Shown one piece after another: positions 8,838 to 10,784 of a DNA stretch of 32,498 nt. Numbering within the stretch: the first letter of the stretch is position 1; the number at the start of each line of letters is the position of its first letter. This DNA is from Lentisphaerota bacterium (lineage in GTDB: Bacteria; Verrucomicrobiota; Kiritimatiellia; UBA8416; VGWI01). The position numbers and the translations under genes were made by a program. The DNA lies in assembly GCA_016873655.1 (NCBI GenBank), contig VGWI01000019.1:1-32498 (forward strand), in the 5' to 3' direction. The notes beneath the pieces are model-generated. The model saw only the letters and a program-made list of their open reading frames with translations, was not told the origin of the DNA and did not search any database.

Positions 8838-8924
8838 ATGAAGAAGGATGCGAGCAAGGAGCAGTTCTGGCGGGAGGCGATAGCGGGGGCGGGGAGCAGC
8901 GGACAGAGTGCGCTGGCGTACTGT
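8838..8924 (+). pseudogene. Remnant of an IS66-family accessory protein (TnpA/orf1-like)
   Basis: An ATG at 8838 behind GGGGAGGGGCAGG opens MKKDASKEQFWREAIAG, then ...SSGQSALAYC. This matches the pattern of the IS66 orf1 helix-turn-helix proteins (SxEQWRxLIxxxxxSGLSVxxFC). The similarity stops abruptly after the Tyr-Cys pair, where the usual FYxWRRxL segment is missing. It is therefore a start-only fragment of about 29 codons. No IS66 orf2 or transposase remains nearby. The family call is from memory of the motif. Confidence 0.45.
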
Positions 8925-8950
8925 CCCAGAAGTATGTTTGCACGCTATCC

Positions 8951-8978
8951 GTTCCCTGCCGGCTGGTCCGGCAGGAAC
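8951..8978. repeat. Hairpin in the IS-remnant region
   Basis: GTTCC-C-TGCCGG pairs with CCGGCAGGAAC over a CTGGT loop, giving 11 bp with a single bulged C. It lies just after the IS66-like fragment and could be a terminator or the end of a mobile element. No T-run follows on either strand. Confidence 0.45.
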
Positions 8979-9102
8979 GGCAGGTTGTGTAGGCATATGC
9001 AAACTGCTGGTCCCCGCAGTCCCGCACCTGCGCCGCGGCACCTGTGCTTCAGCAGCCAGCCGGCCGTATTAAGACAGCGGGTTTGTTAACAGAATCTAGG
9101 TT

Positions 9103-9309
9103 CTAGGTCTGACTCTGGGAGGCTCTCGTTGAATCGATCCTCTTAGGGCCTTTCCAGATGATCAGGAGCTTGAAGGCGACCGGAATCACAGGAATCAGTA
9201 GCGCCGACTTGAGCCTGTCATGGGAGGTGGCCGCAAGGAACACGCAGATGAAGACAAGCATGGCCATTTCCCATCGGACCCATTCCCATGACAGGGGGTG
9301 TGGTTTCAT
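9103..9309 (-). CDS. Small hypothetical membrane protein, two predicted helices
   Basis: A 68-residue product (MKPHPLSWEWVRWEM...) with two hydrophobic segments, AMLVFICVFLAAT and ALLIPVIPVAFKLLII, separated by a charged loop, and a basic tail (WKGPKRIDSTRASQSQT). ATG 9309 follows GAAAGAAG about 5 nt upstream; the track's longer start runs back into the direct repeat. Its start lies 17 nt from the edge of that repeat and it follows mazF on the same strand. Base composition is lower in GC than its neighbours, suggesting acquisition. Family unknown. Confidence 0.5.
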   Translation of the reverse strand: MKPHPLSWEWVRWEMAMLVFICVFLAATSHDRLKSALLIPVIPVAFKLLIIWKGPKRIDSTRASQSQT

Positions 9310-9325
9310 TATCTTCTTTCTTATC

Positions 9326-9357
9326 CTGATGCCCCAACGTACCACATCAACCACGGC
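9326..9357. repeat. Direct repeat copy 1 flanking the mazEF module
   Basis: CTGATGCCCCAACG then TA then CCACATCAACCACGGC. The same sequence, with C in place of TA, recurs at 9976-10006. This copy lies immediately after the mazF stop (minus-strand sense) and just upstream of the small membrane-protein gene. Unlike copy 2 it is not backed by an inverted partner, so if these are recombination sites this one is a half site or degraded. Confidence 0.8.
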
Positions 9358-9360
9358 TGG

Positions 9361-9690
9361 TCACTTGGTGAACATCTCCTGAAGTGTATCCAGGACCTGG
9401 TTCTGGATTCCTGCGGAGATGGTTCCGAGCCTGCGGATCAAGCGTGTCTTGTCCACCGTACGAATCTGGTCAAGGACGACCTGTCCGCGTTTGCCCTGGA
9501 ACATGCAAGCGATGCGTGAAGGATAGGGCCGCCCCCTGGTGGTCATGGGCGCGACAATGACGGTCCTGATATGATTGTTCATCTCGTCGGGCGAGATGAT
9601 GAGGCAGGGGCGGGTCTTTCTGATCTCGCTTCCTCGCGTGGGATCAAGCGAGATGAGAAACACGTCAAAACGGCTGGTCACCATTCCCAT
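9361..9690 (-). CDS. mazF: MazF/PemK-family toxin (endoribonuclease)
   Basis: A 109-residue PemK/MazF-fold protein, a ribosome-independent mRNA interferase that halts translation when not bound by antitoxin. It has the family's N-terminal DVFLISLDPTRGSEIRKTRPCLIIS, with the Glu-Ile-x-Lys-x-Arg-Pro region, then VIVAPMTTRGRPYPSRI and GQVVLDQIRTVDKTRL. The set of conserved positions appears intact, so it is probably active. Its start overlaps the antitoxin stop by 13 nt. Some family members have lost toxicity. Confidence 0.88.
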   Translation of the reverse strand: MGMVTSRFDVFLISLDPTRGSEIRKTRPCLIISPDEMNNHIRTVIVAPMTTRGRPYPSRIACMFQGKRGQVVLDQIRTVDKTRLIRRLGTISAGIQNQVLDTLQEMFTK

Positions 9691-9932
9691 TCCTCCTCAT
9701 CCCACGTCGATCCTGCCTCCGCGACGCGATCGAGGAGTTCATCATCCCCGCATTCCCTCATACGAGCGAATGCGCTTGCCCAGCCTTCACGGGGAAGGGA
9801 GGCTGAGCGAATCACCAATTCGTGGTGTTTCACCTCCATCTCTACTTCGTCCTCAAAACCGCACTGCTCAATCACCGGCTTCGGAAGGCGAATACCCCGG
9901 CTGTTTCCTATTCTGACAAGGGTTGCTTTCAT
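9678..9932 (-). CDS. mazE: MazE/AbrB-family antitoxin
   Basis: An 84-residue protein with an N-terminal SpoVT/AbrB swapped-hairpin DNA-binding domain (KATLVRIGNSRGIRLPKPVIEQ...VEMEVKHHELVIR) and an acidic C-terminal tail rich in Asp/Glu/Trp that would wrap the toxin. It neutralises MazF and normally represses its own promoter. The short palindrome ATTACA-A-TGTAAT sits directly upstream of the ATG, where an operator or a leaderless start could lie. No Shine-Dalgarno is visible. Confidence 0.88.
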   Translation of the reverse strand: MKATLVRIGNSRGIRLPKPVIEQCGFEDEVEMEVKHHELVIRSASLPREGWASAFARMRECGDDELLDRVAEAGSTWDEEEWEW

Positions 9933-9933
9933 G

Positions 9934-9946
9934 ATTACAATGTAAT
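9934..9946 (-). promoter_or_regulatory. Palindrome at the mazE start, candidate autoregulatory operator
   Basis: ATTACA-A-TGTAAT is a perfect 6+6 palindrome two bases upstream of the mazE start codon, in an AT-rich island. Autoregulation by the AbrB-type antitoxin is usual for such modules. Its closeness to the ATG and the lack of a ribosome binding site suggest a very short leader. Confidence 0.4.
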
Positions 9947-9975
9947 TACTCGGAAGCTCCGTGTCAATCTGTGTG

Positions 9976-10006
9976 CTGATGCCCCAACGCCCACATCAAC
10001 CACGGC
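9976..10006. repeat. Direct repeat copy 2 flanking the mazEF module
   Basis: CTGATGCCCCAACG then C then CCACATCAACCACGGC, matching copy 1 except for one TA/C change. The copies are 650 bp apart and bracket mazE-mazF. Homology to copy 1 ends at CACGGC, after which copy 2 continues into a strong hairpin. Confidence 0.8.
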
Positions 10007-10035
10007 GCGGCTTCCGCGCCGAAGCGTTTGAGGCA
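9980..10035 (-). repeat. attC-like imperfect palindrome
   Basis: The outer arms TGCCCCAACGC (9980-9990) and GCGTTTGAGGCA (10024-10035) pair except for one extra base and one substitution. The inner arm CGGCGCGG/CCGCGCCG (10003-10021) is perfect around a CTT loop. The 56-nt length, imperfect symmetry with an extrahelical base, and a GTTGGGG core read on the minus strand just before a gene start resemble integron attC sites. The core departs from GTTRRRY at its last base, and no integrase is present. An unrelated palindrome is possible. Confidence 0.45.
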
Positions 10036-10038
10036 GTT

Positions 10039-10245
10039 GTGTACGCCCAGCATGGGCGTGAACTCATGGGGTGCAAGTCCCCTGCAGGGGGCCAGTGTAT
10101 GAAACTGTGAGCCGAAGGCAACTGCGACGCCGCGACATGCCGACCGAAACGTTCAAGCTCAAGACGCATCGCCGTAACGCCATCGAGGGGAGTGAAAAGC
10201 CAAGTCTCCCCTGGGGACCGGCATCGGAAAAGGCAGATGAGAAAT
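10039..10245 (+). mobile_element. Truncated group II intron, 5' (domain I) segment
   Basis: GTGTACGCCCAGCATGGGCG followed by GGGGTGCAAGTCCCC is the typical 5' start of bacterial group II introns. Further domain-I-like text includes GTGAGCCGAAGGCAACTGCG. The right limit is a guess. There is no reverse transcriptase/maturase ORF and no recognised domain V, so only the 5' fragment survives. It begins 3 nt after the attC-like palindrome and runs opposite to mazEF, the orientation reported for class C attC-targeting introns. The call is by pattern memory; a covariance-model search would settle it. Confidence 0.5.
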
Positions 10246-10340
10246 ATGGAACGATACCTGACCGTGCTTCTGGCCCTTGGCGGCGGTTTCCCGGACCGTG
10301 GAGTCTGCTGGCGGATGTGAATCAGGAGAAGCCCGCCTTC

Positions 10341-10361
10341 GCCCTTCGACAAGCTCAGGGC
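10341..10361. repeat. Short palindromic element GCCCTTCGACAAGCTCAGGGC
   Basis: Outer arms GCCCT/AGGGC form an imperfect hairpin 35 nt beyond the tmRNA 3' end. It may serve as the ssrA terminator region. A related CCCTGAGCAAGG occurs in the hairpin cluster at 22404-22415, suggesting a dispersed family. Confidence 0.4.
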
Positions 10362-10395
10362 TACGGCGCGGCATTCTTCGCATCACGGCGAAAAA

Positions 10396-10784
10396 TGGTG
10401 GAGGCGGGGGGAATCGAACCCCCGTCCGAAATGGAGTCACATCAGCATCTACGTGCGTGTCCTGCCCTTATTGTCTCGCCCGTTCAACTGCCGGAAGGCG
10501 GGCTATTGAACCGGCCAGCGTCCACGCCCGCCTTCGCACAAGGCTAATGCGGGTTTTTATAGTTTCATCCGCGAACCCGGTCGCCCAGCGCACGGACTAG
10601 CCTGCTGTCGTCGTTTCGATCCGCCCATCAGGCGTCGGCGGCGAAACGTCACGGCTTAATTAGGCCGCGAGAGCCAGCTCTTCGTTGGCTTTTGTGTGTT
10701 TTGCCCGGATGATTAACGAGGCCTACCGGACGTCCTCGGCACGCAACTGAAGCTTCAACCACCCCGTCGAAACCAGTCGCCCCC
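10396..10784 (-). ncRNA. ssrA: Transfer-messenger RNA (tmRNA), tag AKHTKANEELALAA
   Basis: Read on the minus strand, the 5' end GGGGGCGACTGGTTTCGACG and the 3' end GGGGGTTCGATTCCCCCCGC... with encoded CCA are diagnostic. The 7-bp acceptor stem GGGGGCG/CGCCTCC closes with one G-U pair. The resume codon GCA at 10704 opens AKHTKANEELALAA and a TAA at 10660-10662; the LALAA end is the usual protease-recognised degron. Length is 389 nt. tmRNA with SmpB rescues stalled ribosomes. Its 3' side abuts the accessory region, a common integration spot. Confidence 0.97.

Follow-up and report, generated by a model that had tools for sequence, protein, structure and literature searches.

A mazEF module in a Lentisphaerota genome as a probable former integron cassette flanked by decayed half-sites and an intron remnant

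Recombination at attC sites requires a folded hairpin with R and L boxes. Toxin-antitoxin (TA) modules are found as integron cassettes in chromosomal arrays such as that of Vibrio cholerae, and such cassettes reportedly resist being lost from arrays (PMC11023631). CALINs are cassette remains that lie away from any integrase and are defined by detectable attC sites (PMC7923331, PMC9024848). For group IIC-attC introns, the insertion site is R'' on the bottom strand of attC, with the intron oriented against the direction of cassette transcription; terminators are reported as a further target (PMC7923331).

Here we describe a mazEF locus of a Lentisphaerota bacterium that shares features with all of these systems. 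The window analysed is the whole stretch of 32,498 nucleotides of contig VGWI01000019.1 (assembly GCA_016873655.1). As in TA integron cassettes, one TA module lies between two GTT boundaries and is homologous to cassettes of three related genomes (G019, G010 and G379), whereas its flanking half-sites fail the attC model and the window holds neither an integrase nor an array. Like a CALIN, the locus would represent cassette remains away from any integrase, but attC sites are not detectable there. The sequence beyond one boundary agrees with group IIC-attC introns, including one on plasmid OW968333.1, in its 5' end, its orientation opposite to the cassette and its stem-loop 5' exon ending in TT, but it differs from them in comprising only the first 50-200 nt, with no maturase and no domain V, and in having a degenerate attC as its 5' exon. 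We consider it probable (roughly 0.7) that mazEF is a former integron gene cassette whose sites have decayed to L'-R' halves, one of them carrying an intron remnant; a decayed cassette of this sort is a known kind of mobile unit in an unusual state of preservation. The features discussed below are as follows (a slash marks the exon-intron junction).

9103-9309, minus strand: small membrane-protein-like open reading frame of 68 aa, starting shortly after repeat copy 1.
9326-9357, minus strand: repeat copy 1, member of the 32-/31-nt repeat pair; putative right half, without a left half, of the attC that a mazEF cassette should have at its 3' end.
9361-9690, minus strand: mazF toxin gene, 109 aa (Pfam PF02452 PemK_toxin, E=9.5e-30).
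9678-9932, minus strand: mazE antitoxin gene, 84 aa (Pfam PF04014 MazE_antitoxin, E=5.9e-6).
9933-9988, minus strand: putative cassette leader, from G^TT to mazE; ACAGATTGAC...GTAATTACATTGTAATC is common to the G019 cassette.
9976-10006, minus strand: repeat copy 2, putative right half (L'-R') of a decayed attC.
9979-10038, plus strand: stem-loop forming the 5' exon of the putative intron; its terminal GTT abuts the intron 5' end, and it reads as a degenerate attC bottom strand, GCCCCAAC GCC ... CAGTT/.
10039-10090, plus strand, antisense to mazEF: 5' end of a putative truncated group IIC (attC-type) intron; at most 92% identity over 52 nt to plasmid group II introns, aligned with five introns.
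10396-10784, minus strand: tmRNA gene (ssrA), a neighbouring housekeeping gene and the only Rfam match in the window.

The MazE-like antitoxin gene precedes the PemK/MazF toxin gene, and the pair is predicted by Pfam to be a type II TA module. Comparison with the G019 homologues gave dN/dS values of ~0.08 for mazF and ~0.10 for mazE, indicating that mazEF is still under strong purifying selection, as expected for a TA pair that is costly to lose.

The module is bracketed by two copies of a minus-strand repeat of 31-32 nt, GCCGTGGTTGATGTGG(TA or G)CGTTGGGGCATCAG, spaced 649/650 bp apart. The near-identical pair ~650 bp apart around mazE-mazF described in the first-pass annotation was confirmed by the coordinates and by BLAST, in which the copy-2 region, used as query against the whole 3.08-Mb genome, recovered copy 1 (E=1.4e-5, 94% identity), a similarity well above chance genome-wide. 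Pattern searches of the same 3.08 Mb returned no third copy, so that a REP-type element was rejected, and the further copies that the annotation had proposed to look for did not appear. The repeat was likewise absent from 31 genomes of the same order (pattern search), and the core pattern gave 21 scattered matches in 84,980 species genomes, about chance level by our estimate (~13).

The two copies are also identical over 12 nt past the crossover, unlike ordinary different cassettes, and ordinary cassette insertion gives no account of this near-identity. The near-identical half-sites would point either to one boundary that was duplicated or to two closely related attC sites. GCATCAG occurs also in the leader of the G009 mazEF, which lies in no detected cassette; copy 1 may thus have arisen by duplication of a boundary, possibly that of a second mazEF cassette since lost. 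The start and end of mazF share a 12-nt match, GTGACCAGCCGT (repeat family D4), which overlaps copy 1 and may mark the rearrangement. A 12-nt direct repeat, ACGGCTGGTCAC, lies at window positions 9353-9364 and 9670-9681, at the end and start of mazF, with 9353-9364 overlapping copy 1.

These features bear on the explanation that a chromosomal mazEF, never part of an integron, came to be bracketed by simple local duplication of a 31-bp stretch, and that the copies end in GTTGGGGC by coincidence. The restriction of the repeat to two copies in the genome, the 12 nt shared past the supposed crossover and the lack of an attC score all speak for it, and GCATCAG in the G009 leader means that part of the repeat may be leader copied downstream. 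Such a duplication nevertheless leaves unexplained the intron 5' end at copy 2, the match of the boundary to that of G019 and the resemblance to attC right halves, and we regard it as unlikely.

To score the repeats as attC sites, a covariance model (R1) with paired R and L boxes was built from 31 aligned sites out of those gathered from related genomes having integron integrases. When run as a control on a plasmid from another phylum that carries a class 1 integron and was left out of training, the model recovered six attC sites. With filters off, it found nothing above 4 bits at either repeat in 8900-10400, and scans of the window for R''...R' motifs with L-box pairing gave no credible attC at the repeats. 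The repeats are not intact attC sites, and the literal attC claim fails. The attC-like palindrome that had been reported at copy 2 is present as such, TGCCCCAACG...CGTTTGAGGCA around a perfect 8-bp hairpin; its attC identity did not survive, with a score of at most 4 bits and L'' and L' boxes that do not pair, for which reason the palindrome is not a canonical attC and the copies are better described as putative decayed attC remnants. Its folding energy is unremarkable (z=-1.8; 9/200 shuffles fold as well). Copy 1, as had been noted, has no inverted half and consists of the right half only.

The copies do resemble the right half of attC, with left halves missing or diverged. The R'-like GTTGGGGC lies on the minus strand at 9981-9988 in copy 2 and at 9331-9338 in copy 1, and the G^TT crossover in copy 2 would fall between 9988 and 9987. 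Both copies carry a GTTGGGG(C) core whose last base is not the Y of GTTRRRY; GTTGGGG is also R' in true attC sites of G011. When a weight matrix made from 57 attC right halves was scored on 64,942 window positions, the copies ranked 20th and 22nd with scores of 8.6 and 8.4, at the low end of the real attC range (median ~16), and 19 other window positions exceeded copy 1. The right-half resemblance is thus suggestive and not decisive, given these 19 higher positions and the original choice of the copies partly for GTTGGGGC.

The cassette ancestry is argued for mainly by the homologues. The closest MazF found (87% identity) is encoded in G019, another genome of the same order, where mazEF is flanked by attC sites scoring 41.1 and 44.2 bits, within an array of ~40 attC over roughly 33 kb; the array begins next to an intact intI at 39.3 kb and ends at ~74 kb of the contig. 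The G010 (71%) and G379 (68%) modules lie between attC sites of 35.0 and 23.6 bits and of 35.6 and 33.0 bits, respectively; the sites of the G010 cassette have degenerate R boxes. In G128, a 20.1-bit attC site directly follows mazF. Of the 18 mazEF homologues outside the window's genome, 14 had no attC detected next to them, so that the family is found in the group both as an integron cassette and as an ordinary chromosomal module. In the chromosomal integron at G019:C7 ~40-74 kb (~40 attC), the cassettes of mazEF and of a Phd/VapC-like pair adjoin, and the order mazEF then Phd/VapC-like pair recurs in G010. Upstream of the G128 mazE, GTGTGGAGTGCGAGTCCCCACGC... resembles another group II intron piece.

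The cargo is thus homologous to known cassettes, and its boundary is at the equivalent position. The copy-2 GTT lies 56 nt upstream of the mazE ATG, compared with 55 nt for the G019 attC core, the two leaders being homologous and alignable, and the copy-2 R' stands where the G019 cassette has its attC R'. On the other side, the copy-1 GTT lies 22 nt past the mazF stop versus 59 nt for the attC core in the intact G019 cassette, so that ~37 nt are missing downstream of mazF relative to G019, approximately what R'', L'' and the loop would occupy in an attC.

A clue absent from the first-pass annotation adjoins copy 2, where an apparent intron 5' end fits insertion in an attC. From 10039, the plus strand reads GTGTACGCCCAGCATGGGCGTGAACTCATGGGGTGCAAGTCCCCTGCAGG, which over 52 nt is as much as 92% identical to the 5' ends of group II introns, and a 5' end of the GTGYG type is present together with the conserved sequence after it, GTGTACGCCCAGCATGGGCG; weaker intron homology may continue to ~10240. 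The matching intron in plasmid OW968333.1, located within a class 1 integron, contains an LtrA coding sequence and is recognised by Rfam group II models; other introns sharing this start are present in G001 and G003, both of the same order. Rfam models detected no group II intron across the window, nor did an E-value search of 9300-10420, so that the evidence for the intron is its nucleotide similarity to the 5' ends of introns. No catalytic domains, domain V or maturase were found at this fragment; the remainder of the intron is gone, R'' with it, and the end of ssrA follows at 10396. The reading of GGGACTTGCACCC...CCCATGCTGGGCG as the 3' end of an upstream cassette was rejected, because this sequence is the reverse reading of the intron 5' end. 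Further group IIC introns with 5' exons resembling attC bottom strands were seen at G003:C152, G003:C39 and in G001.

The putative intron sits directly after the stem-loop and antisense to the cassette genes, with the 5' exon GCCCCAACGCC...GAGGCAGTT/GTGTACG. Given that IIC-attC introns also target terminators (PMC7923331) and that the copy-2 stem is mostly the inner 8-bp hairpin, copy 2 might be an ordinary hairpin, such as a terminator-type stem, that was hit by a group IIC intron, mazEF having arrived otherwise. However, no T-run follows the copy-2 stem on either strand, mazEF and ssrA are both transcribed in the minus-strand direction, the beginning of the stem, GCCCCAACGCC, agrees with how attC bottom strands start at other introns (TCTAACGCC, TTTAACGCC), and copy 1 is left without explanation, all of which makes this origin very unlikely.

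The remark that no integrase is visible holds for the window and not for the genome: the search of its remainder that had been suggested turned up an intact integron-type integrase on C2 (TIGR02249, 471 bits), an internally deleted intI on C125 and an intI fragment on C85. The covariance model also detected about nine attC elsewhere in the genome (three strong sites on C125, three on C109, and one each on C17, C74 and C16). The C2 integrase lies beside lexA, and the 20 kb examined there contained no attC. The integron machinery of this genome itself appears degraded. The C2 gene, at G000:C2 194-2828, is located between lexA and a second tyrosine recombinase, and an integrase of this type paired with a second recombinase match is likewise present in G026, G028, G013, G001, G009 and G004. 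The region G000:C125 388-3818 is a small decayed integron with a deleted intI, three strong attC and intervening genes that include a glyoxalase-like gene and a membrane protein gene.

With an intact integrase on C2 and GTTGGGG serving as R' in attC sites of a relative, the copies might be taken for intact functional attC of an unusual type and mazEF for a live cassette. We find this hardly credible, as a model that detects class 1 attC in another phylum gives no score here and copy 1 is without a left half. On the far side of copy 1, the 68-aa reading frame matched nothing in Pfam or NCBIfam, had no homologue among 30 genomes of the order and is not followed by an attC; it is possibly the next cassette, or unrelated.

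Against the cassette reading stand the scores of at most 4 bits, the unpaired L''/L', the 12 nt shared past the crossover, the low right-half scores and the 14/18 homologues with no detected attC. The first-pass annotation had named a missing attC score, a lack of further copies and an arrangement fixed in all relatives as marks of a simple local duplication; the first two were found, whereas the arrangement is not common to relatives and one of them has the intact cassette form. Of the integron-cassette layout it proposed, the ancestry is retained, on the strength of the homologues between attC in three genomes, the GTT position, the attC and intI of the genome and the intron 5' end, and the identification of the repeats as attC is not.

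A decayed-cassette history would take as its starting point the observed homology, boundary positions, intron 5' end, intact attC around the homologous cassette and failure of the attC model at this locus. An integron integrase would have joined mazEF at attC sites, with the left boundary at the copy-2 GTT and the right boundary at the copy-1 GTT. A group IIC attC-type intron would later have inserted in the bottom strand of the copy-2 attC, at the R'' position, and the intron itself would then have been truncated, with loss of R'' from this site. A deletion would have removed ~37 nt (R'', L'' and loop) from the copy-1 attC, and the module would have become fixed in the chromosome with mazEF intact and selected. 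We infer this order of intron insertion, deletion and fixation. Because only the L'-R' half would be kept at both sites, the integrase should no longer excise the cassette, which is probably immobile. A further idea, which we hold to be quite improbable, is that half-sites flanking a TA cassette are a selected 'locked' state, kill-on-loss TA cassettes being favoured to lose their left attC halves and so to pass from mobile to permanent by a repeatable route, with G010 as an intermediate.

If the decayed-cassette reading is correct, the locus would document a route from integron cassette to ordinary chromosomal pair, along which selection keeps the cargo intact and the recombination sites degenerate, in one case perhaps through intron insertion. 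The attC score alone, used as a cassette detector, would miss such fossils, and one mazEF family would occupy integron arrays as well as plain chromosomal sites in this group of bacteria.
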